From Streptomyces sp. DG1A-41 (GTDB lineage: Bacteria; Actinomycetota; Actinomycetes; Streptomycetales; Streptomycetaceae): 64,000 bases of DNA. Both the position numbers and the translations under genes were made by a program. This document shows, one piece after another, positions 1,908 through 27,343 of this stretch. Each line of letters opens with the position of its first letter. Within the stretch, counting starts at the first letter, position 1. The DNA lies in the NCBI RefSeq assembly GCF_037055355.1, contig NZ_CP146350.1:5665001-5729000 (forward strand), written 5' to 3'. The notes below the pieces were generated by a model. The model was given only the letters and a program-made list of their open reading frames with translations, was not told the DNA's origin and did not search any database.

Positions 1908-3371
1908 TTGTACAGCGGTGTTTCCGGGGTCCGGAAGACCGACGGTGGTGGGGTCGCGGGAAGGCGGGCGTCGGGCGTGACGGTGCGCGAGGCGGGGCAG
2001 GGCGGCGCGGGTGCGTATGCGGGTCGGTACACCGGCGGGGCCGCGGGTGGGTATGCCGGCGGGTATGCGGGCGGCCACGGCAGTGTGCAGGGAGGGGGGC
2101 CCGGAGGTATGGACGGCGGTGTGCACGGAGGTCCGCACGGCGGTGGGTGCGCCTGTGGGGACTGCCCGCACGGGGCGCGCGAGGGGCACCGGCGGGCCCT
2201 CGCCGCGTTCCTGCGCAGGCGCGACGAGTTCGCGGCCGGGCAGGGGCTGCCGGCCGCGGTGGCCCACTCCGCCTCGGCTTCCCGCCAGTGGGTCTCGGAG
2301 GAACTGGCGCAGTCCGCGGAACTCGTCGCCGAGCGCGGCCGGGCCGAGGGCCGGGCCCGGCGGGCCGGCCTGTGGCGCCGCACGGCGGGTGTGGTGTGGG
2401 CGGCCGTCGTGCTGTTGCTGCTCGGACAGTCCCTCACCGCGGTCGGCGCGGGCTGGACGGCGGCCCGTACGGCCGGGCTGGCCGCCGCGCTGGTGGTCGC
2501 CGGGGCGCTGACGGCGGCGTCGTGGTTCCACCGGGCGAAGGGCGGTGCGCTGGCGCCCGTCATCGGTGAGGACAACCGGCTGTCCACCTCCCGCACGGTC
2601 GCCGGGGCATGGGTGCTCTTCGTGGCCTACTCGGTGCTCGTGCTGGCCGGGCGGCTGGCGGGCGCCTCCCGGCACGCCGACCGGGACGCGCTGCTCTCCG
2701 GGCTGGAACTCGCCCGCGGGGCCGGGGTCGTCACCGTGCTCGCCGTGGTGTGCGTGATCGCCGTGCTCGTGCGGCGTGTGGTCGGGCTGCGCGTGCTGGG
2801 GCAACGGCTCCAGAAGGTACCCGCCGACCGGCCGCGCGCCGCCGACCTGCTGACCGACGACGCCGGCCGGGGAACCTTCGCCGACATCCAGTACGTCGTG
2901 ATCAGCGCCGTCGCCCTGGTCTTCGCGGCGGTACGGCTGGCCAGGCGGCCGGACCAGCTGCCGGATCTGCCGTGGGGGCTGGCGGTGGTGGTCCTGGTGT
3001 CGGCGGCGACGTACCTGGCCGGCAAGTACGCGGAGGGCGGCCGGCCGGTCATCCTCTCCGTCGTGCGGTCGCGGGAGGCGGGGGACCTGGACGGGCCGAT
3101 CCGCACGGGCGACGACATCGAGATCCGGGGCGCCGGGTTCGTGCCGCCGGGTGCGCAGGGCGCGGACCGGCTGGCCCGGATGGTCGTCCGCGTCGGTGCC
3201 GTCCATGTGCACGTCCCGTTGGTGCCGGTGCCCGGGGGTTTCAGCAACCCGACGGACACGCTCCTGACCGTGCCGGTGCCGGCGGATGTGGAGCCGGGGC
3301 GGGTGGAGGTACAGGTGGTCACGGCGGCGGGGGTGGAGACGAACCGGTATGTGGTTGATGTGACGGAGTGA
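1908..3371 (+). CDS. polytopic membrane protein with C-terminal IPT-like domain
   Basis: Unrecognised membrane protein, up to 487 aa. The N-terminus is Gly/Tyr/His-rich with AGGYAGGY-like repeats, then a Cys/His cluster (GCACGDCPHGA, residues ~80-90), a charged helix, about six hydrophobic segments between residues ~160 and 380, and a ~110-residue C-terminal domain. That domain resembles an IPT/TIG beta-sandwich (GDDIEIRGAGF, and SNPTDTLLTVPVP near its end). The start is uncertain. TTG at 1908 has its GGAG directly adjacent, which is poor spacing. GTG at 1977, or ATG at 2109 with a GGAGGG run about 10 nt upstream, may be used; the latter would drop the Gly-rich repeat. The downstream gap to 3668 holds a GC-rich hairpin but no further gene that I can support. 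Confidence 0.75.
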   Translation: MYSGVSGVRKTDGGGVAGRRASGVTVREAGQGGAGAYAGRYTGGAAGGYAGGYAGGHGSVQGGGPGGMDGGVHGGPHGGGCACGDCPHGAREGHRRALAAFLRRRDEFAAGQGLPAAVAHSASASRQWVSEELAQSAELVAERGRAEGRARRAGLWRRTAGVVWAAVVLLLLGQSLTAVGAGWTAARTAGLAAALVVAGALTAASWFHRAKGGALAPVIGEDNRLSTSRTVAGAWVLFVAYSVLVLAGRLAGASRHADRDALLSGLELARGAGVVTVLAVVCVIAVLVRRVVGLRVLGQRLQKVPADRPRAADLLTDDAGRGTFADIQYVVISAVALVFAAVRLARRPDQLPDLPWGLAVVVLVSAATYLAGKYAEGGRPVILSVVRSREAGDLDGPIRTGDDIEIRGAGFVPPGAQGADRLARMVVRVGAVHVHVPLVPVPGGFSNPTDTLLTVPVPADVEPGRVEVQVVTAAGVETNRYVVDVTE

Positions 3372-3668
3372 GGCTGGCGGGTACGTCCCGGTTCTGCTGC
3401 CGCAGGCCGCCGGTCCGGGCCGCCGTGGCCGTCCTGGCTGTCGGCAGTCGTGCCGCCTGGGGCGGCGCCCGCCCCAAAGAAGCGGCACCCCGCTCCGCCG
3501 GGCCGTGGGCCCACCCGGCCCCAGCTCAACCGCCGGGCACCTGGAGACGCCGGTTGCCTCGCTCCCCAGTGACAAAAGCCGCCGCACAGGATTGAGCCGG
3601 GCCGGTTCGTCGTACGTATGGTCTGATGAGGGGGTCTCGGCACCGGCGGCGAGAGGCGGCTAGCAGCG

Positions 3669-4199
3669 ATGACTCACCGTATGCGAGCGGACACGCACAC
3701 CTCCCACTCCGGCAGTGGAGGAGACTGGCGGGACACCGCCGTCCGCTACGCCCTCCTTCCCCTTCGGGTCTTCCTCGGCGTCACCTTCATCTACGCCGGC
3801 CTGGACAAGATCACGGACAGCGCCTTCATGAAGGACGCCGGCTCCGGCTCGGTCGGCGACATGATGCGTGCCGTCCGCGACTCCTCCGCCATCCCCGCCC
3901 TGGTCGACCTCTCTTTGAAGAGCCCTGTCGGCTTCGGCTACGCCATCGCCTTAGGAGAACTGGCCGTCGGCATCGGCACCCTGCTCGGCCTCCTCGCCCG
4001 CCTGGCCGCACTCGGCGGTGCGCTGATCTCCCTCAGCCTGTGGCTGACCGTGAGCTGGGCCTCCGACCCGTACTACTACGGCAACGACCTCGCCTACCTC
4101 ATGGCCTGGATCCCCCTCGTACTCGCGGGCGCTCCCCTGCTCTCCGTGGATGCCGCCTTGAGGTCACGGCGACGGCAGAGGACAGGGAGTTACCGGTAG
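3669..4199 (+). CDS. DoxX family membrane protein
   Basis: Membrane protein of 176 aa resembling the DoxX/MauE-like family of four-helix integral membrane proteins. After a polar N-terminus (~25 residues) comes the family hallmark LRVFLGVTFIYAGLDKI with the start of helix 1. A loop and three further hydrophobic helices follow (YAIALGELAVGIGTLLGL; LGGALISLSLWLTVS; LAYLMAWIPLVLAGAPLL). DoxX proteins are linked to thiosulfate or thiol redox chemistry in some bacteria, but the partner here is not visible. ATG at 3669 is preceded by a weak GAGGCGGC ribosome site. Monocistronic in this window, convergent with the next operon. Confidence 0.87.
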   Translation: MTHRMRADTHTSHSGSGGDWRDTAVRYALLPLRVFLGVTFIYAGLDKITDSAFMKDAGSGSVGDMMRAVRDSSAIPALVDLSLKSPVGFGYAIALGELAVGIGTLLGLLARLAALGGALISLSLWLTVSWASDPYYYGNDLAYLMAWIPLVLAGAPLLSVDAALRSRRRQRTGSYR

Positions 4200-4235
4200 T
4201 GCGGCAGTGGGCTGGGCAGCGGGCGGAGCCCGTGG

Positions 4236-19055: not shown

Positions 19056-20729
19056 TCAGGGAGTGGTCAGCTCCTCGGCCATCGCCGCGCGCAGGCGCAA
19101 CGTCGTGACCAGGCGCTGGAAGGCCTCCGCCCAGTAGCCGCCGGCGCCGGGAGAGGCGTTCTCCGGCTCGTCCGGTACGGCCAGCAGGGCGTCGAGGCGA
19201 CCGGCCTCGGACGGGTCGAGGCAGCGCTCGGCCAGGCCCATGACTCCGCTGAAACTCCATGGATAACTCCCCGCGTCCCGCGCGATGTTGAGCGCGTCCA
19301 CCACCGCCCGGCCGAGCGGCGGCGCCCACGGCACCGCGCACACCCCGAGCAGCTGAAACGCTTCGGACAGGCCGTGCGTCGTGATGAAGCCGGCCACCCA
19401 CTCGGCCCGCTCGGCGGCGTCCAGCGTGCCGAGCAGCTTGGCGCGTTCGGCCAGGGACACCGCGCCCGGGCCGCCCGCCTCCGGTGCCGAGGGCTCCCCG
19501 AGCAGCGCCCGCGACCACTCGGTGTCCCGCTGGCGCACCGCGGCGCGGCACCACGCCGCGTGCAGTTCGCCTCGCCAGTCGTCCGCGACCGGCAGGGCCA
19601 CGATCTCCCGGGGCGTCCGCCCGCCCAGCCGTCGCGACCAGGTCCCGAGCGGAGCCGCCTCCACCAACTGGCCGAACCACCACGACCGTTCACCCCGTCC
19701 GGCGGGCGCCTTCGCCACGACGCCGTCGCGCTCCATGCCCGGATCGCACTCGTGCGGCGCTTCGACGGCGATGGTCGGCGTGGCCACCGTGACTCCAGCG
19801 GCCGTCGAAGCCCCCGGGTCTGTGGCCCGGGTGGCCTGGGTGTGGTCGAGGGCCACGCACGCCTCCGCCCTGACCGCCATTCGCGCGGCGAGCGCCGAAC
19901 CGGGCAGCGCCGACAGCAGTTCCGCCGCCGTCGCCCGGACGTTGCGGCTGCGGTCGGCCAGGGCCTGTTCCAGGAACGGCTCGTCGTCGGGGACCAAGCC
20001 CGTGCGCAGGGAGTCGAGGAACATCAGCCGGTCCTCGGCCCGTTCCATCGCCCAGGTCGTCGCCAGCAGTTCCCGCGCGGCGGCCGATCGGCGGGAGCGC
20101 AGGGCGGACAGGAGGGCGACCCGTTCGGCGAACAGGCCCTCCTGCCACAGCTGCCGGACGCTGTCGTCGTCCTCGAGATGCGGCAGGGCCGCTCCGCCGC
20201 CCGGTGTCGAGCGCAGGGCGAACCGCCAGTCCGGGTTCAGCCGCGCCAGCCACAGGGCCCGCGGCCCCGCGAACTCCAGGGCCGCCGGACGCAGGTCGGT
20301 GCGCCCCCGGGCCGCGTCAAGCAACGCGGGAAGCAGCTGCGGAGCAGGTGCAAAACCACGGGTGTTGGCCGCCGCGAGCCACTGGGGCAGCAACTCCGTC
20401 AGGTCGGGCGCGGTGCCCCGGCGGCCGCCGCCGGACGCGCCGGGGCGGTCGGCCAGCAGCAGCGCGAGTCTGCGGGCGGCCGCCTGCGGCAGAGGCGGAC
20501 GCGGGTCCTCCGGGGCCGGCTGCGGACGCTCCGCCGCACGCGCCGGACGCAGACCGGCCCTTCGTCGTACGGTCTCCACGGCCGCCGCGTCCAGCAGGGC
20601 CACCGGTGCGTCCGCGCCCGGTCCGGTGCCCGGCGGGGTGCGCCGGTCCGTGCCCAGCAGTGCCGTGGTGACGAGCCCCTCCCAGGCGCCCGTCGCGGGC
20701 GCGTCCACAGGAGCGGAGGTCCTGTTCAT
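19056..20729 (-). CDS. DUF5691 family protein, MoxR/VWA-locus component
   Basis: Cytoplasmic protein of 557 aa. ATG at 20729 has AAGGAAG upstream. No enzyme motif is visible. The middle (residues ~130-330) is helix-rich with HEAT-like character: repeated leucine-rich helical pairs such as RSRNVRATAAELLSALPGSALAARM. Segments like VTTALLGTDRRTPP near the N-terminus and GTWSRRLGGRTPREIVALPV are typical of DUF5691. It lies 161 bp downstream of the SWIM gene on the same strand, in a locus divergent from a MoxR ATPase / DUF5682 / VWA operon, a grouping I recall as conserved in actinobacteria. Possibly a scaffold for the ATPase complex. This role is inference. Confidence 0.78.
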   Translation of the reverse strand: MNRTSAPVDAPATGAWEGLVTTALLGTDRRTPPGTGPGADAPVALLDAAAVETVRRRAGLRPARAAERPQPAPEDPRPPLPQAAARRLALLLADRPGASGGGRRGTAPDLTELLPQWLAAANTRGFAPAPQLLPALLDAARGRTDLRPAALEFAGPRALWLARLNPDWRFALRSTPGGGAALPHLEDDDSVRQLWQEGLFAERVALLSALRSRRSAAARELLATTWAMERAEDRLMFLDSLRTGLVPDDEPFLEQALADRSRNVRATAAELLSALPGSALAARMAVRAEACVALDHTQATRATDPGASTAAGVTVATPTIAVEAPHECDPGMERDGVVAKAPAGRGERSWWFGQLVEAAPLGTWSRRLGGRTPREIVALPVADDWRGELHAAWCRAAVRQRDTEWSRALLGEPSAPEAGGPGAVSLAERAKLLGTLDAAERAEWVAGFITTHGLSEAFQLLGVCAVPWAPPLGRAVVDALNIARDAGSYPWSFSGVMGLAERCLDPSEAGRLDALLAVPDEPENASPGAGGYWAEAFQRLVTTLRLRAAMAEELTTP

Positions 20730-20890
20730 GAGCTTCCTTTCCGTGGGGCGCCCGGTGGTGGTTGAAGGCTCACCCTTACCGGTTGTCCCGGGATGCCTGA
20801 AAGATTCGTGGATTTGAGAGAAGGGTGGGCCGGGCCGGAAAAGGCCGGGCCGCCGGTTTCGGAGTTGGCGGCGTTGGCGTTGGCTTCGGC

Positions 20891-22246
20891 TCAGCACAGG
20901 GCTATCGCGTCGCCCGGGCCCTCGGGCCACGCCGTCAGCGGGGTGAAGCCCTGGTGGCCGCATTCGCCGAAGACCCTGACCGGGGCGCCGCCCGACAGCG
21001 CGACGAGCCGCCACAGGCCCGGCCGGGCACGCGCCGTGGGAGTGAGCGGCAACGCCGCGTCCTCGTCCGCGTCCGCCAACTGCCAGGAGTCGCCGTCCGG
21101 GCTGGGGACGACCCGGTCCAGCGTCACCGGGACGGACTCCACCCAGGGATCGTCGCGCAGGGCGTCGCCGTAGCGGGCGGCCGCCTGGGACGTCGTCACC
21201 CCCTGCGGGCGTATCGCCGTCGGCGCGGGCGGTGCGAACTGTTCGCCCAGGGCCACCCGCGGCTGCCCGGCGCCCGGGTAGGCGGACACCTCGGCCTCCA
21301 GGACCAGCCCCACCGGCAACGCCAGCTCCGGGGCGCGGCCGGCGGCGCCGTAGGAGAGGAGCAGCACGGTGCGGTCCGAGTCGGCGCCGTGCAGCCAGAC
21401 CCGGCGGGTCGTCAGGCGCGTGTCCGCCGTGTCGTACTGGGCGAGCACCAGCCAGCGGTCCCGCACCGGCGGGCCGTCCGCGGAGGCCGGCAGACCGATG
21501 CGGGAGCGGACCGTGGCGGCGAGAGCGTCCGGGAGCCGCTCGCGGCGCAGCCAGCCCTGACCGAGGAGGTGCAGCAGCGCGCACTCCTCCAGCAGACGCA
21601 CCGGCCAGCCCGGCCCTGTGGACGGGATCGCCCCCAACTCCCGGACCCGGCCGGCCAGGCCCTGCGCCTGGGCGTCGACCATGCGGGCCGCCGTCTCCTC
21701 CCACAGGCCGTAACCCGACTGCTCCGCCGTCGCCAGACCCGTGCGCAACAGATCCGCCAGGCGCTGCTCCAGCTCCACCGCTCCCGCCGTGACCCGCTCT
21801 GCCCGCCGCTCCGCCCGGCGCCGCGCCGCCTCCGGATCAGCGGATCCGGACGGTGAACCGGAGCTGTCCCCGGCCTTCTTCCCCTCAGCGCGCTTACGCC
21901 GCCCCGCTATCCACTGCCCGGCCCACTCCGGCGCCTCTCCCGTCGGCACCGCTGCGTCGCCGCCCGCCCAGAGCAGCAGCAGCCCGAGCGCGTGCTTGCA
22001 CGGGAACTTGCGGCTCGGACAACTGCACTTGTACGCGGGCCCGGAGGCGTCCGCGATGTCGACGACCGTCTGATACGGCTTGCTTCCGCTGCCCTTGCAC
22101 AGCCCCCACACCGTCCCCTCGTCGGAACTCCCCGCCTCGGACCACGGCCCCGCCGCGCCGAGTTTGCTCCCCGCTTTGCGTGATGCCGCGTCAGGCGCCA
22201 GTGCCAGCACCTGGTCCGCGGTCCAGCGCACCCCCTGCTGAGTCAT
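20891..22246 (-). CDS. SWIM zinc-finger protein
   Basis: Protein of 451 aa with a SWIM domain near the N-terminus: CxCx(6)CxH spelled by KCSCPSRKFPCKHALG (Cys74, Cys76, Cys83, His85). SWIM fingers bind zinc and are seen in nucleic-acid or protein-binding contexts. The rest is unassigned, with a helical Arg/Glu-rich middle and a C-terminal region with several Gly/Pro breaks. ATG at 22246 (MTQQGVRWT) has no Shine-Dalgarno and lies 7 nt after a TACCTT -10-like box, so it is probably leaderless. That promoter is the minus-strand half of a mirrored DNA-damage-type pair (see 22254-22276). Its presumed operon partner is the DUF5691 gene. Confidence 0.86.
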   Translation of the reverse strand: MTQQGVRWTADQVLALAPDAASRKAGSKLGAAGPWSEAGSSDEGTVWGLCKGSGSKPYQTVVDIADASGPAYKCSCPSRKFPCKHALGLLLLWAGGDAAVPTGEAPEWAGQWIAGRRKRAEGKKAGDSSGSPSGSADPEAARRRAERRAERVTAGAVELEQRLADLLRTGLATAEQSGYGLWEETAARMVDAQAQGLAGRVRELGAIPSTGPGWPVRLLEECALLHLLGQGWLRRERLPDALAATVRSRIGLPASADGPPVRDRWLVLAQYDTADTRLTTRRVWLHGADSDRTVLLLSYGAAGRAPELALPVGLVLEAEVSAYPGAGQPRVALGEQFAPPAPTAIRPQGVTTSQAAARYGDALRDDPWVESVPVTLDRVVPSPDGDSWQLADADEDAALPLTPTARARPGLWRLVALSGGAPVRVFGECGHQGFTPLTAWPEGPGDAIALC

Positions 22247-22253
22247 GCCATCG

Positions 22254-22276
22254 AAGGTAGATCCCACCACTGACAA
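22254..22276 (-). promoter_or_regulatory. PafBC-type promoter of SWIM gene
   Basis: On the minus strand: TTGTCAGTG (fwd 22276-22268), exactly 8 nt, then TACCTT (fwd 22259-22254). This is a full match to the tTGTCRGTG-N8-TAnnnT DNA-damage promoter motif of actinobacteria, ending 7 nt before the ATG. Confidence 0.75.
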
Positions 22277-22325
22277 TCGGGTCGGCGAGCGGCTCCGGCG
22301 GGGTGTTTGCGCAGGTCACAACGCA

Positions 22326-22348
22326 TTGTCAGTGGTGTGGTGCAACGT
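22326..22348 (+). promoter_or_regulatory. PafBC-type promoter of MoxR operon
   Basis: TTGTCAGTG at 22326-22334, 8 nt, then CAACGT at 22343-22348. The -10-like box has C in place of the first T of TAnnnT, so this is an imperfect match. With the minus-strand site it forms a 13-bp perfect inverted repeat (22265-22277 and 22325-22337) facing outwards over 47 bp. Confidence 0.62.
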
Positions 22349-22391
22349 AAATGCCAGATCCGAACCGGCCGAGCTGGAGGGGGACTCAGCC

Positions 22392-23567
22392 ATGCCTGTG
22401 TCCGTAGAACCGACGTCCGTCGACCCGAGCCAGAACGGGTCCGCGCCCGCGAACGCGGGGGCGGGCGCACCCGCGGACGTGACCGAGGCGGAAGCACTGC
22501 GGCCGCACGCCGAGGACGCCTTCGCCGGCGAACTCGCCGCGCTGGCCGCGCAGGACGACCGTTCGCGTCCGGCCCGCTGGAAGCTGTCGCCGTGGGCCGT
22601 CGCGACGTACCTGCTCGGCGGGACGCTGCCGGACGGCACGGTGATCACACCGAAGTACGTCGGCCCGCGCCGTATCGTCGAGGTCGCCGTCACCACGCTC
22701 GCCACCGACCGCGCCCTGCTCCTGCTCGGCGTACCCGGCACGGCGAAGACCTGGGTCTCCGAGCATCTGGCCGCGGCGGTCAGCGGCGACTCCACGCTGC
22801 TGGTGCAGGGCACCGCCGGCACGCCGGAGGAGGCCATCCGGTACGGCTGGAACTACGCGCGGCTGCTCGCCCACGGCCCGAGCCGCGACGCGCTCGTGCC
22901 CAGCCCGGTCATGCGGGCCATGGCCGAGGGCATGACCGCCCGCGTCGAGGAGCTGACGCGTATCCCGGCCGACGTGCAGGACACGCTCATCACGATCCTG
23001 TCGGAGAAGACGCTGCCCATACCGGAGCTGGGCCAGGAGGTGCAGGCGGTCCGCGGCTTCAACCTGATCGCCACGGCCAACGACCGCGACCGCGGGGTCA
23101 ACGACCTGTCCAGCGCCCTGCGCCGCCGGTTCAACACGGTGGTGCTGCCGCTGCCGGAGAGCCCCGAGGCCGAGGTCGACATCGTCTCGCGCCGCGTCGA
23201 CCAGATCGGCCGCTCGCTCGACCTGCCGGCCGCGCCCGACGGCCTCGACGAGATCCGCCGGGTCGTCACGGTCTTCCGTGAGCTGCGCGACGGGGTCACG
23301 ACCGACGGCCGGACGAAGCTGAAGTCGCCGAGCGGCACGCTGTCCACGGCCGAGGCGATCTCCGTCGTCACCAACGGGCTCGCCCTGGCAGCCCACTTCG
23401 GCGACGGCGTGCTGCGGCCGGGCGACGTGGCCGCGGGCATCCTCGGCGCGGTGGTCCGCGACCCGGCGGCCGACCGCGTCATCTGGCAGGAGTACCTGGA
23501 GACGGTCGTCCGCGAGCGGGACGGCTGGAAGGACTTCTACCGGGCCTGCCGGGAGGTGAGCGTGTGA
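22392..23567 (+). CDS. MoxR-family AAA+ ATPase
   Basis: AAA+ ATPase of 391 aa, start ATG 22392 with GGAGGGGG 8 nt upstream. Walker A is GVPGTAKT (residues ~113-120). The Walker B region is unusual (ARVEELTRIPADVQ, where MoxR proteins usually have LLDEINR). Sensor/arginine-finger segments FNLIATANDRDRGVNDLSSALRRRFN and PLPESPEAEVDIV follow. MoxR ATPases act as chaperone-like remodelers together with VWA proteins, and the VWA gene is the fourth in this operon. Residues 1-60 are Ala/Pro-rich and probably flexible. The operon is transcribed from a DNA-damage-type promoter divergent from the SWIM gene. Confidence 0.9.
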   Translation: MPVSVEPTSVDPSQNGSAPANAGAGAPADVTEAEALRPHAEDAFAGELAALAAQDDRSRPARWKLSPWAVATYLLGGTLPDGTVITPKYVGPRRIVEVAVTTLATDRALLLLGVPGTAKTWVSEHLAAAVSGDSTLLVQGTAGTPEEAIRYGWNYARLLAHGPSRDALVPSPVMRAMAEGMTARVEELTRIPADVQDTLITILSEKTLPIPELGQEVQAVRGFNLIATANDRDRGVNDLSSALRRRFNTVVLPLPESPEAEVDIVSRRVDQIGRSLDLPAAPDGLDEIRRVVTVFRELRDGVTTDGRTKLKSPSGTLSTAEAISVVTNGLALAAHFGDGVLRPGDVAAGILGAVVRDPAADRVIWQEYLETVVRERDGWKDFYRACREVSV

Positions 23568-23622
23568 GCGACGCGGGGCGGGGGTTGGCTGCGGGGCCGG
23601 GCACGGGATGGGAGGGAGACAG

Positions 23623-26040
23623 GTGACGGGCGTGGAAGAATCTGTCGGCCGGGCGGCCGGGGCGGGGCCGGTGCTGCTCGGGGTACGGCATCACGGGCCG
23701 GGGTCGGCGAGGGCGGTGCGGGCGGCGCTGGAGGAGACCCGACCGCGGATCGTGCTGATCGAGGGACCGCCCGAGGCCGACGCGCTGATCCCGCTCGCCG
23801 CCGACGAGGAGATGCGGCCGCCGGTCGCCCTGCTCGCCCATGCCGTGGACGAGCCCGGCCGCTCGGCGTTCTGGCCGTTGGCCGAGTTCTCCCCGGAGTG
23901 GGTCGCCATCCGCTGGGCCCTGGAACACGACGTCCCGGCCCGCTTCATCGACCTGCCGGCCACGCACACGCTGGCCTGGGGAAGGCAGGAGGACGGGGCC
24001 GGAGTGGAGGGGAAATCTCCTCCGGACGCCGAGACGGCGGACAACGAGGGCGACTACGGCCCCGCCTCCGGCCCCGCCGACGTGCGGATCGATCCGCTCG
24101 GGGTGCTCGCCGAGACCGCCGGCTACGACGACCCGGAGCGGTGGTGGGAGGACGTCGTGGAGCACCGGGGCGTGGGGAAGAAGGGGGAGGCGCTCGCGCC
24201 GTTCACCGCGATCGAGGAGGCGATGGGGGCGCTGCGGGAGACCTATGGCAGCGAGGGACACGACCGGGACCTGGTGCGCGAGGCGTACATGCGGCTCCAG
24301 GTGCGAGCCACGCAGCGGGAGTTCGAGGACGGTGTGGCCGTCGTGTGCGGGGCGTGGCACGTGCCCGCACTGAGGCGGAAGACCACCGTCGTCGCCGACA
24401 AGGCGCTGCTGAAGGGGCTGCCCAAGGTCAAGACGGACATGACCTGGGTGCCCTGGACCCACCGCAGGCTGTCCCGGAACAGCGGTTACGGGGCCGGCAT
24501 CGACTCGCCGGGCTGGTACGGGCACTTGTTCAGCGCCCCGGACCGGCCGGTCGAGCGGTGGATGACCAAGGTGGCGGGGCTGCTGCGCGCCGAGGACCGG
24601 TTCGTCTCCTCCGCGCATGTCATCGAGGCCGTGCGGCTGGCCGAGACGCTCGCCGCGATGCGCGGCCGTCCGCTGCCCGGCCTGAGCGAGACGACCGACG
24701 CGGTGCGGGCGGTGATGTGCGAGGGCTCGGACGTGCCGCTGGCGCTGGTGCGGGACCGGCTGGTCGTGGGGGACGTGCTGGGGGAGGTGCCGCCGACGGC
24801 GCCGGCGGTACCGTTGCAGCGGGACCTCGCCCGGCTCCAGCGCCGGCTGCGGCTGAAACCGGAGGCGTTGGAGCGGGAGGTGGAGCTCGACCTGCGCAAG
24901 GAGACCGACGCCGCCCGCAGCAGGCTGCTGCACCGGCTGCGGTTGCTCGGCATCGCGTGGGGCGAACCGGCCGCCTCACGGGGCAGCACGGGCACGTTCC
25001 GGGAGTCGTGGCGGCTGCGCTGGGAGCCCGAGCTGTCCGTGCGGGTCGCCGAGGCCGGGGTGTGGGGGACGACCGTCCTGTCCGCCGTGACCGCCAAGGC
25101 CGAGGCGGACGCCGTCGCCGCGCAGGGTCTCGCCGACGTCACGGCGCTCGCCGAGCGCTGCCTGCTGGCCGAACTGCCCGAGGCCCTGCCGACGGTGATG
25201 CGACTCCTTGCCGACCGGGCGGCCCTCGACACGGATGTCGGCCAGCTCGCCCAGGCGCTGCCGGCCCTCGTCCGCTCCCTGCGCTACGGCGATGTGCGCG
25301 GCACGGACACCGGAGCCCTGGGAGAGGTCGCGGCGGGTCTGGCCGAGCGGGTCTTCGTCGGCCTGCCCCCGGCATGCGCCGCGCTCGACGCGGACGGCGC
25401 CGAGGAGATGCGGCGTCATGTCGACGCCGTGCACGGGGCCGTGGGGCTCCTGGGCGACGCCCCGGCAGCGGGACAAGGCAACTTGAGTGCCCGTTGGCAG
25501 GCGGTGCTGCGGGTGCTGTGCGGGCGGGACACCGTGCCCGGGGTGATTCGGGGGCGGGCCGTGCGGCTCCTGCTCGACGACGGGGAGCTGGCGCAGGACG
25601 AGGCGGCGCGCCTCATGGGGCTCGTCCTGTCCCCGGGCACGCCACCGGCGGACGCGGCCGCGTGGATCGAGGGCTTCGTCGGAGGAGGCTCCGGGGGCGG
25701 GATGCTCCTGGTGCACGACGACCGGCTGCTCGGGCTGGTCGACGCGTGGCTGACCGGGGTGCCGGTGGAGGCGTTCACGGACGTGCTGCCCCTGCTGCGG
25801 CGGACGTTCTCGGCGTACGAGCCCGGGGTCCGGCGGACCCTCGGCGAACTGGTCCGGCGCGGGCCGGGGGCCGGGAGCGGCGCGACAGGAGCAGGCTCCG
25901 GCATACCAGGCATACCCGGCTTCGCCGCAGAGCTCGACACGGTGCGCGCGGACGCCGTGCTGCCGGTCGTGCGACTGCTGCTCGGCCTGGACGAAGGGGA
26001 AGAACACATCCGCAACAACCTGGTGGGGGTGACGGGATGA
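23623..26040 (+). CDS. DUF5682 family protein, possible TraB/ChaN-like hydrolase
   Basis: Large protein of 805 aa. GTG at 23623 is preferred (GGGAGGGAG upstream); ATG at 23608 is also in frame. The N-terminus reads VLLGVRHHGPGSARAV (His23-His24) then IVLIEGPPEAD (Glu47). This pattern, glycine-x-x-His then a beta strand ending in a conserved Glu, recalls the TraB/PrgY-EreA-ChaN superfamily of metal-dependent hydrolases or proteases. A Glu/Gly-rich insertion (residues ~125-150) and a long helical C-terminal half follow. Second gene of the MoxR operon, ending in an ATGA overlap with a 48-aa ORF. In a MoxR-VWA setting it could be the effector or the client. That role is inference. Confidence 0.82.
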   Translation: MTGVEESVGRAAGAGPVLLGVRHHGPGSARAVRAALEETRPRIVLIEGPPEADALIPLAADEEMRPPVALLAHAVDEPGRSAFWPLAEFSPEWVAIRWALEHDVPARFIDLPATHTLAWGRQEDGAGVEGKSPPDAETADNEGDYGPASGPADVRIDPLGVLAETAGYDDPERWWEDVVEHRGVGKKGEALAPFTAIEEAMGALRETYGSEGHDRDLVREAYMRLQVRATQREFEDGVAVVCGAWHVPALRRKTTVVADKALLKGLPKVKTDMTWVPWTHRRLSRNSGYGAGIDSPGWYGHLFSAPDRPVERWMTKVAGLLRAEDRFVSSAHVIEAVRLAETLAAMRGRPLPGLSETTDAVRAVMCEGSDVPLALVRDRLVVGDVLGEVPPTAPAVPLQRDLARLQRRLRLKPEALEREVELDLRKETDAARSRLLHRLRLLGIAWGEPAASRGSTGTFRESWRLRWEPELSVRVAEAGVWGTTVLSAVTAKAEADAVAAQGLADVTALAERCLLAELPEALPTVMRLLADRAALDTDVGQLAQALPALVRSLRYGDVRGTDTGALGEVAAGLAERVFVGLPPACAALDADGAEEMRRHVDAVHGAVGLLGDAPAAGQGNLSARWQAVLRVLCGRDTVPGVIRGRAVRLLLDDGELAQDEAARLMGLVLSPGTPPADAAAWIEGFVGGGSGGGMLLVHDDRLLGLVDAWLTGVPVEAFTDVLPLLRRTFSAYEPGVRRTLGELVRRGPGAGSGATGAGSGIPGIPGFAAELDTVRADAVLPVVRLLLGLDEGEEHIRNNLVGVTG

Positions 26041-26183
26041 CGACCGACGGACTGAGGCGGCCGGCTCCGACCGCGGAAGCGGGAGACACGGCCGGGAACG
26101 GGTCGCCGGCGGAAGGCCGGCCGACGACGGCCGTGCCGGTGATCCCGCTGTGGGAACGGCCTCGAAAAGGAGGACGTGGATGA
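26037..26183 (+). CDS. 48-aa coupled small protein in MoxR/VWA operon
   Basis: Short ORF whose ATG overlaps the DUF5682 stop (ATGA at 26037-26040) and whose stop overlaps the VWA start (ATGA at 26180-26183). It encodes 48 aa, Pro/Gly/Thr-rich and polar, ending in a distinctive hydrophobic-then-basic tail (VPVIPLWERPRKGGRG). No family recognised. Tight coupling at both ends argues for real translation, either as a product or as a ribosome relay that sets the DUF5682:VWA ratio. The AAGGAGG for the VWA gene lies inside its 3-prime end. Confidence 0.6.
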   Translation: MTTDGLRRPAPTAEAGDTAGNGSPAEGRPTTAVPVIPLWERPRKGGRG

Positions 26184-27343
26184 CGGCCGAGGTGACGGAC
26201 CCGGTGCAGGAGCGGTTGCGGCGGTGGCGGCTCGTGCTCGGGGGCGACGCGGCGGACGGCACCGGGTGTGAACTGTCCGGGCGGGACGCGGCGATGGACG
26301 GAGCGCTCACCGCGCTCTACGGCAAGGGGGAGAAGCCGCAAGGGGGCCGGGACCGTTCGGCGGGACTGGGGGCGTCGGCGCCGTCCGTGGCGCGCTGGCT
26401 CGGCGACATCCGGACGTACTTCCCGTCCTCCGTCGTACAGGTCATGCAGCGCGACGCCATCGACCGGCTCGGTCTCGCCACGCTCCTGCTGGAGCCGGAG
26501 ATGCTGGAGGCGGTGGAGGCCGACGTGCACCTCGTCGGCACGCTGCTGTCGCTCAACAAGGCCATGCCCGAGACGACGAAGGAGACGGCACGGGCCGTCG
26601 TACGCAAGGTCGTCGAGGACCTGGAGAAGCGGCTCGCCACCCGCACTCGCGCCACCCTCACCGGCGCCCTCGACCGCAGCGCCCGGATCAACCGGCCCCG
26701 GCATCACGACATCGACTGGAACCGCACGATCGCGGCCAATCTCAAGCACTACCTGCCCCCGTACCGAACGATCGTGCCGGAGCGGCTCATCGGGTACGGG
26801 CGAGCGTCCCAGTCCACGAAGAAGGAGGTCATCCTCTGTATCGACCAGTCGGGATCCATGGCGGCATCGGTCGTGTACGCATCGGTGTTCGGAGCGGTGC
26901 TCGCCTCGATGCGGACGATCTCCACGCGACTCGTCGTCTTCGACACGGCGGTCGTCGACCTGACGGACCAGCTCGACGACCCCGTCGACGTCCTCTTCGG
27001 GACGCAGTTGGGCGGCGGCACGGACATCAACCGGGCACTCGCCTACTGCCAGTCGCAGATCACCCGGCCCGCGGAGACGGTGGTCGTGCTGATCAGCGAT
27101 CTCTACGAGGGAGGCATACGGGACGGGATGCTCAAGCGGGTGGCGGCGATGAAGGCGTCAGGGGTGCAGTTCGTGACGCTGCTGGCGCTCTCGGACGAGG
27201 GGGCGCCGGCATACGACCGGGAGCACGCGGCCGCGCTCGCCGCGCTGGGGGCACCGGCGTTCGCCTGCACGCCCGGTCTGTTCCCGGAGGTGATGGCGGC
27301 GGCGATCGAGAAGCGTCCGCTGCCGATACCGGATGCGGCGTGA
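26180..27343 (+). CDS. VWA domain protein, partner of MoxR ATPase
   Basis: Protein of 387 aa. ATG at 26180 (MTAEVTDPVQ) has AAGGAGG upstream and overlaps the stop of the 48-aa ORF. The N-terminal ~200 residues are helical. The von Willebrand A domain follows with a complete MIDAS: DQSGSM (Asp222, Ser224, Ser226), then the Thr of LGGGTDIN and the Asp of LISDLYEGG. This combination is typical of ViaA/CoxE-type partners of MoxR ATPases. Last gene of the divergent operon; nothing follows within 275 bp. Confidence 0.9.
   Translation: MTAEVTDPVQERLRRWRLVLGGDAADGTGCELSGRDAAMDGALTALYGKGEKPQGGRDRSAGLGASAPSVARWLGDIRTYFPSSVVQVMQRDAIDRLGLATLLLEPEMLEAVEADVHLVGTLLSLNKAMPETTKETARAVVRKVVEDLEKRLATRTRATLTGALDRSARINRPRHHDIDWNRTIAANLKHYLPPYRTIVPERLIGYGRASQSTKKEVILCIDQSGSMAASVVYASVFGAVLASMRTISTRLVVFDTAVVDLTDQLDDPVDVLFGTQLGGGTDINRALAYCQSQITRPAETVVVLISDLYEGGIRDGMLKRVAAMKASGVQFVTLLALSDEGAPAYDREHAAALAALGAPAFACTPGLFPEVMAAAIEKRPLPIPDAA

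Follow-up and report, generated by a model that had tools for sequence, protein, structure and literature searches.

Divergent MoxR-DUF5682-VWA and SWIM-DUF5691 genes of Streptomyces are preceded by PafBC-type DNA-damage promoter boxes

The window analysed here is a stretch of 64 kilobases (kb) from Streptomyces sp. DG1A-41 (contig NZ_CP146350.1, positions 5,665,001 to 5,729,000), whose genome is one contig of 8.99 megabases. It contains two divergent gene units, SWIM-DUF5691 leftwards and MoxR-DUF5682-VWA rightwards, and each is preceded by a promoter box of the PafBC (RecA-NDp) type. The features are listed below with their positions in the window.

19056..20729, minus strand: DUF5691 protein of 557 amino acids, second gene of the leftward unit (Pfam PF18944, 571 bits, searched with one extra 5' codon; the ATG at 20729 was read from the sequence)
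20891..22246, minus strand: SWIM zinc-finger protein, first gene of the leftward unit, ligands CSCPSRKFPCKH (Pfam PF04434, 26.5 bits)
22276-22254, minus strand: PafBC-type (RecA-NDp) box of SWIM-DUF5691, TTGTCAGTG-N8-TACCTT, in full TTGTCAGTGGTGGGATCTACCTT (pattern scan)
22326-22348, plus strand: PafBC-type (RecA-NDp) box of MoxR-DUF5682-VWA, TTGTCAGTG-N8-CAACGT, in full TTGTCAGTGGTGTGGTGCAACGT (pattern scan)
22392..23567, plus strand: MoxR-type AAA+ ATPase with the variant Walker A GVPGTAKT (Pfam AAA_5, 127.7 bits)
23608..26040, plus strand: DUF5682 protein, start codon provisional (Pfam PF18934, 1007.7 bits)
26037..26183, plus strand: open reading frame (ORF) of 48 amino acids overlapping the DUF5682 and VWA genes (no Pfam match)
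26180..27343, plus strand: VWA protein of the CoxE family (VWA_CoxE) with DQSGS at the metal ion-dependent adhesion site (MIDAS) (Pfam PF05762, 208.5 bits)

The start codons of the SWIM gene (22246, minus strand) and the MoxR gene (22392, plus strand) are separated by exactly 145 base pairs (bp). Sequence and Pfam matches thus bear out the preliminary description of this DNA in its two divergent units, its gene order, the shared intergenic region and the SWIM finger. The HEAT-like label that it gave to DUF5691 rests on a sub-threshold match of 15.4 bits. At least 557 loci have DUF5682; conservation was assessed in the 80 best of these, and the complete divergent order of five genes was found in 74 of them. 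The other six, scored in the stretch examined and at least in part explained by a contig end, hold only DUF5682 and VWA (three loci), lack VWA (two) or lack DUF5691 (one). The 48-amino-acid ORF had been counted as a sixth member, but tblastn matched it in only 24 of the 80 loci. It is therefore ruled out as a conserved part of the system, which leaves five genes in the conserved set instead of six.

Each direction has one copy of the 9-mer TTGTCAGTG with a -10-like hexamer 8 bp further on, giving the form TTGTCAGTG-N8-(T/C)AnnnT; the -10 of the MoxR box has CA where the RecA-NDp consensus has TA. The pattern TTGTC(A/G)GTG-N8-(T/C)ANNN(T/C) has just these two matches in the window. The SWIM transcript is probably leaderless because its box begins 30 bp upstream of the SWIM ATG, while the other box begins 66 bp upstream of the MoxR start codon, and MoxR has the ribosome site GGAGGGGG. 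Both boxes are kept in all 77 loci with both SWIM and MoxR, so the proposal that both promoters carry them stands. Both 9-mers are exact in 72 of these 77 Streptomyces/Kitasatospora loci, and the other five (L044, L049, L058, L063, L073) have one substitution in one box.

In the whole genome the pattern TTGTCAGTG-N9-A-N3-T has 49 matches, and the reversed pattern, used as a control, has none. Together with the conservation in 77 of 77 loci, these counts place the two boxes beyond chance. The matches are found upstream of recA, uvrA, uvrB, dinB, ung, ogt, dnaX, lhr and others, and a promoter of this kind is said to have been described for recA of S. rimosus. Besides the pair at the locus there are 47 sites, some of them within long ORFs; a candidate start lies at most 135 bp away in 36 and at 27-37 bp in 18, as judged from simple gene calls based on GC content at third codon positions, some of which may be wrong. 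Of the 47 proteins encoded downstream, 30, chosen mostly for a close start, were scanned with Pfam: 18 belong to repair or replication, 10 to other categories, and 2 have no Pfam match. The 18 are UDG, a DinB-type polymerase, RarA, a DEAD helicase, RecD2-HHH, UvrA, UvrB, Ogt, an AlkZ-like protein, DnaX, HolB, RadA, a DnaN-type protein, Lhr, RecA, a DinG-type helicase, GyrA/ParC and an RNase_T exonuclease, where names such as RadA, RarA and DinG are our reading of the Pfam domains. PafC is encoded in the same genome (HTH_PafC, 97.9 bits, with WYL and WCX domains). It is adjoined by a second WYL protein, taken as PafB by the WYL domain only, and PafA (559 bits) lies near it; a helicase gene with a damage box is found in the same stretch.

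Published work is cited here and below from excerpts. The RecA-independent promoter has the consensus tTGTCRgtg-8 nt-TannnT (PMC5656591) and is used by PafBC (PMC6789036, PMC11804915), and according to a review it reaches other Actinobacteria beyond mycobacteria (PMC8223512). The Streptomyces sites resemble the mycobacterial regulon in the form of the box, in the inclusion of recA and other repair genes and in the position of PafC beside PafA, but differ in that their form is TTGTCAGTG. Proteins named MoxR1 and MoxR2 are reported to be lower in a pafBC mutant of M. smegmatis. Judged by sequence, the boxes of the locus are the actinobacterial RecA-independent, PafBC-type damage promoter. The same motif stands genome-wide before repair genes, which agrees with the DNA-damage type first ascribed to these promoters, and a regulatory link of the five-gene set to DNA damage is nearly certain. 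PafBC would be expected to bind at the boxes, and the genes to be induced by damage. The locus would be a chromosomal operon pair of the DNA-damage regulon, switched on with recA, uvrA, uvrB and other repair genes; this view, taken together with the single machine proposed below for its products, is given an even chance. What is new, as far as our searches reach, is the attachment of the motif to this operon and not its presence in Streptomyces, and a literature search on PafBC, Streptomyces and DNA damage gave no paper on a Streptomyces PafBC regulon, as judged by title.

A sample of 296 genomes from the phylum includes nine of the same genus, and these have 6 to 37 strict matches each and no control matches. 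Among the other 287 there are 1-2 strict matches in 23 and a control match in 12; the exact form is thus hardly enriched outside the genus. DUF5682 occurs in 21 of the 296 genomes and in 146 of 150 Streptomyces genomes, which makes the family core rather than accessory in Streptomyces; in 129 of the 146 (hand count) the match reaches at least 925 bits and is taken as the window type by this score alone.

The set is also present in other actinobacteria, on a Deinococcus plasmid and on Rhizobium plasmids. Nine other actinobacterial genomes of the phylum sample have a single row SWIM-DUF5691-MoxR-DUF5682-VWA, although tblastn gave no DUF5691 match in two of them (L165, L166); there is also a tenth case on a short contig (L162). 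In a genus with two genomes (g4), recA has TTGTCGGTG-N8-TA and the start of the operon has (T/G)TGTCGGTG-N8-TACAA(A/C), a -10 without the last T. In five genomes where recA is boxless the operon is boxless too. This comparison takes the better of two recA-like matches in G162 and leaves out two of the nine, G188 (no recA found) and G042 (partial or weaker recA matches).

A second version, of the type known from E. coli, occurs in Streptomyces as WGR-DUF4132, MoxR, DUF5682, VWA and SWIM (L172). There are 15 long DUF4132 loci in 150 Streptomyces genomes, and the start of the gene is present in 14. A correctly oriented upstream box was found in 12 of the 14, once as TTGTCGGTG; the exceptions are L191, with a reversed box in a rearranged spot, and L204, without a box. 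By their neighbours, the 13 loci other than L172 are complete (seven), partial (one, L311), cut by a contig end (one, L314) or solitary (four, L320-L323), and the complete operons have the box in eight of eight cases. The solitary WGR-DUF4132 genes, with no MoxR, DUF5682, VWA or SWIM nearby, have the box in three of four (L200, L201 and L202, not L204). Around the DUF4132 gene of a Rhodococcus plasmid, the annotation of the 21 kb examined shows neither MoxR nor DUF5682.

A third version, with a SWIM-like protein, VWA, MoxR and a distant DUF5682, is found in 34 of the 150 Streptomyces genomes and has the box in 28 of 30 loci (L235 lacks it and L249 is cut). A check of 18 further loci showed the remaining three genes next in line in all 18; L175 brings the number to 19, and the box is present in 18 of these. 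The reversed control pattern is absent from the 93 kb and 136 kb of E. coli-type and third-version loci. The first protein is called SWIM-like by eye, with no Pfam match at 0.01; at L220-L249 some genomes encode it as a single ORF, whereas in most it is divided into two pieces, between which the search table reports a stop. Outside Streptomyces (L170, L171) there is no motif in L171, and L170 has a site of TTGTCGGTG type, at a distance of about 2.5 kb upstream, that is left unassigned. A fourth version (L159, L173, L174) has no motif at the operon start. Since three distantly related versions stand under the same type of promoter, a real functional tie is argued for.

In E. coli, YehL, YehM, YehP and YehQ match AAA_5, DUF5682 (330.8 bits), VWA_CoxE and SWIM. 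The four genes are adjacent in one row, a grouping that takes in the homologous window set as well, and the P-loop of YehL is GEPGTAKS against GVPGTAKT in the MoxR of the window. Unlike the window set, yehLMPQ lies on one strand, with yehF (WGR, 61 bits), the pseudogene yehH and yehI (DUF4132) upstream in place of DUF5691, and a LexA-like box in place of the PafBC boxes. This box ends 7 bp before yehF and agrees with 13 of 20 positions of the LexA consensus. The yehF/yehH region is presumably molR. In the excerpts of two papers molR is listed as LexA-regulated (PMC11039860, PMC4576408). WGR has been called a DNA-break-recognising domain of PARP2 (PMC13061835). In D. radiodurans, DRA0165-DRA0166 (DUF4132) and DR2173, with WGR at its N-terminus, are targets of DdrO with radiation/desiccation response motifs (RDRM), and mitomycin C raises the levels of tagged DRA0166 and DR2173 (PMC8533742); the terms MoxR, SWIM and VWA were not found in the text of that paper as available. 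D. taeanensis has the window-type operon on a plasmid, with an RDRM-like palindrome (two mismatches) 20 bp before its first gene. Only the position of the palindrome is suggestive because there are 3 matches in the locus against 1.79 expected. The LexA link in E. coli and the DdrO link in Deinococcus thus concern the WGR/DUF4132 partner and not yet the MoxR-DUF5682-VWA genes. Plasmids of Sinorhizobium and Allorhizobium (L254, L260) have an E. coli-type operon ordered AAA-DUF5682-DUF4132-VWA-SWIM, and the DUF5682 gene of a Hymenobacter radiodurans plasmid (L263, 6989-9281) is annotated as three overlapping pieces.

The model of DUF5682 has an N-terminal alpha/beta domain like that of ChaN, Ere and TIKI (about residues 19-282), with a parallel beta-sheet core flanked by helices as in the TIKI/TraB/Ere/ChaN superfamily, and a C-terminal helical solenoid (about 475-791). 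The helical repeats of the C-terminus filled the fold search with the whole protein, and the N-domain was therefore folded alone. Compared in this way it matched one ciliate protein first and then ChaN, EreC, BcR135 and RRSP, above all others. A Glu, the motif Arg-x3-Met and GxxH are invariant across 37 DUF5682 sequences. In the Ere set (n = 16) E12, R199 and H232 are invariant and M203 is found in at least 90%, so that Glu, Arg-x3-Met and a later His come in the same order in both. Sequence comparison did not reach significance: no match was found in the PDB, the profile search gave no significant match to the TIKI/TraB/Ere/ChaN families, and hhalign against the TIKI-type superfamily aligned the R-x3-M..H stretch with E 0.018-0.03 and a probability of 2-3%. 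TraB (PF01963) in 1 of 149 and ChaN (PF04187) in 1 of 246 actinobacterial genomes were too few for profiles of these families to be built. The relation to TraB/EreA/ChaN that had been suggested is accordingly upheld by the fold of the N-domain and not by sequence profiles. DUF5682 shares fold and residues with these hydrolases but differs from them by its long solenoid, and its N-domain is a putative TIKI-fold hydrolase.

MoxR-VWA pairs are described as remodelling clients (Kaur et al. 2020, excerpt), and the Walker A of MoxR and the MIDAS of VWA are both present here as in such machines. Seven solved chains in the PDB match the MoxR of the window, midasin first and then NorQ. The set has the MoxR-VWA pair in common with RavA-ViaA, but the ViaA model gives 20 bits against a cut-off of 500; membership of that group is rejected and with it the label RavA-ViaA type.

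The likeliest reading of the locus is a remodelling and hydrolysing complex for proteins at damaged DNA. The gene set, the motif and its regulon, the conservation, the motif on three distant versions, the fold likeness and the invariant active-site-like residues are observed. PafBC-type promoters would switch on MoxR, VWA, DUF5682, SWIM and DUF5691 together with the repair genes, and the products most likely assemble into one machine. A client would be held by the MIDAS site of VWA and by the solenoid of DUF5682 and remodelled by the MoxR ring at the expense of ATP. The TIKI-fold N-domain of DUF5682 might hydrolyse the client, or might itself be the enzyme that MoxR-VWA matures. Targeting, either to damaged DNA or to proteins stuck there, might be the task of the SWIM protein, shared in the E. 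coli-type version with the WGR-DUF4132 protein. We infer complex formation, hydrolysis and the identity of the client. The mechanism, in which an AAA+/VWA remodeller and a TIKI-fold hydrolase would act together at damaged DNA, is offered tentatively, as somewhat less than an even prospect. A machine for proteins jammed on damaged DNA, with a MoxR-VWA unfoldase feeding DUF5682 as a TIKI-fold protease and aimed by SWIM or WGR, is a bolder reading and considered unlikely.

The set might instead be a damage-triggered conflict system, against phage or for cell death, in which MoxR-VWA is a threshold switch releasing a DUF5682 effector. The MoxR-vWA ternary conflict systems (VMAP, iSTAND, FtsH and beta-propeller kinds) likewise combine an AAA+ MoxR and a VWA with a third component, and in some the P-loop reads GXXXTAKS (Kaur et al. 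2020, excerpt); this P-loop variant is common to the FtsH and beta-propeller kinds and the MoxR of the window, as the two P-loops given above illustrate. The match to the bpMoxR model is 23.3 bits, below the threshold of 27, and there are several versions in the genus as well as plasmid copies. However, the third component is here DUF5682, accompanied by SWIM and a DNA-repair promoter, and the terms TraB and SWIM were not found in the text of that paper as available. A known anti-phage system is rejected, since PADLOC gave no match for five of the six proteins and for MoxR only IetA (12.7 bits, E 0.014 and 0.03), which is not credible. Most defence loci are not so widespread as DUF5682, which 146 of 150 Streptomyces genomes have, and the 74 complete loci are identical in arrangement. 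A conflict system is considered unlikely.

It is similarly improbable that MoxR and VWA are only chaperones inserting a metal or cofactor into DUF5682, an enzyme of damage metabolism, without remodelling DNA-bound proteins. The VWA protein belongs to the CoxE family, NorQ comes after midasin among the solved relatives of MoxR, and Tiki is reported to require metal. NorQ-NorD and CoxD-CoxE lack the DUF5682, SWIM and DUF5691 that the window set adds, and no NorB- or CO-dehydrogenase-type gene is among the Pfam-scanned neighbours. This explanation leaves the SWIM and WGR partners unaccounted for, and RRSP, with the same fold, is reported to be metal-independent.

Two results weigh against a complex governed by DNA damage. 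A 2022 study, in its excerpted text, reports from an initial search that the M. smegmatis motif is not conserved in S. venezuelae (PMC9380542). The SOS box was absent from the 250 bp upstream in eight of eight alphaproteobacterial loci, three of which are unannotated and were located with the SWIM protein as tblastn query. The S. venezuelae report would fit boxes that are ordinary sigma-70-like promoters or chance matches without damage control, which is highly improbable in view of the 49 matches against none in the control, the 18 repair or replication proteins among 30 scanned, the 6 to 37 strict matches in each of nine genomes with no controls and the retention of both boxes in 77 of 77 loci. 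The same study leaves open the existence in Streptomyces of a damage response independent of RecA/LexA, and the 49 sites, including recA and many repair genes, speak to this question.

Given these promoters and the regulation of partner proteins in E. coli and Deinococcus, a little-studied family may help cells to survive damaged DNA. No paper mentioning DUF5682 or DUF5691 was found in the literature searched, and a search for at least two of yehL, yehM, yehP and yehQ gave genome reports only, papers on single genes not being searched for. The place of the set in the Streptomyces DNA-damage regulon and the hints from E. coli and Deinococcus give a concrete phenotype that can be tested in model organisms. 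If the WGR/DUF4132 links extend to the whole set, it would have been wired separately to three unrelated regulators, PafBC, LexA and DdrO. Eukaryotic DNA-protein-crosslink repair is carried out by p97 and SPRTN, and a machine for jammed proteins would be its bacterial counterpart.

Other genes were also found behind such boxes. Stand-alone proteins with WGR and a beta-propeller-like part are encoded in two other Streptomyces genomes (L291, 1579-3012, plus strand; L293, 3388-4848, minus strand), each with its start some 80 bp downstream of a TTGTCAGTG box. In three Streptomyces genomes (L292, L294, L295) the TTGTCAGTG box is followed by an ORF of 138 to 160 amino acids and a DUF4132-like protein, matched by tblastn only, next to succinate-dehydrogenase-type genes. 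Uncharacterised or SUKH-4, DUF2797 and DUF4253 genes behind the box in the genome of the window (L083, L101, L106, L141, L152) are candidate damage-response genes. At L144 a DnaN-type sliding-clamp gene (3065-4213, minus strand) and an adjoining sigma-70-family gene (1929-2945, minus strand) each have their own box.

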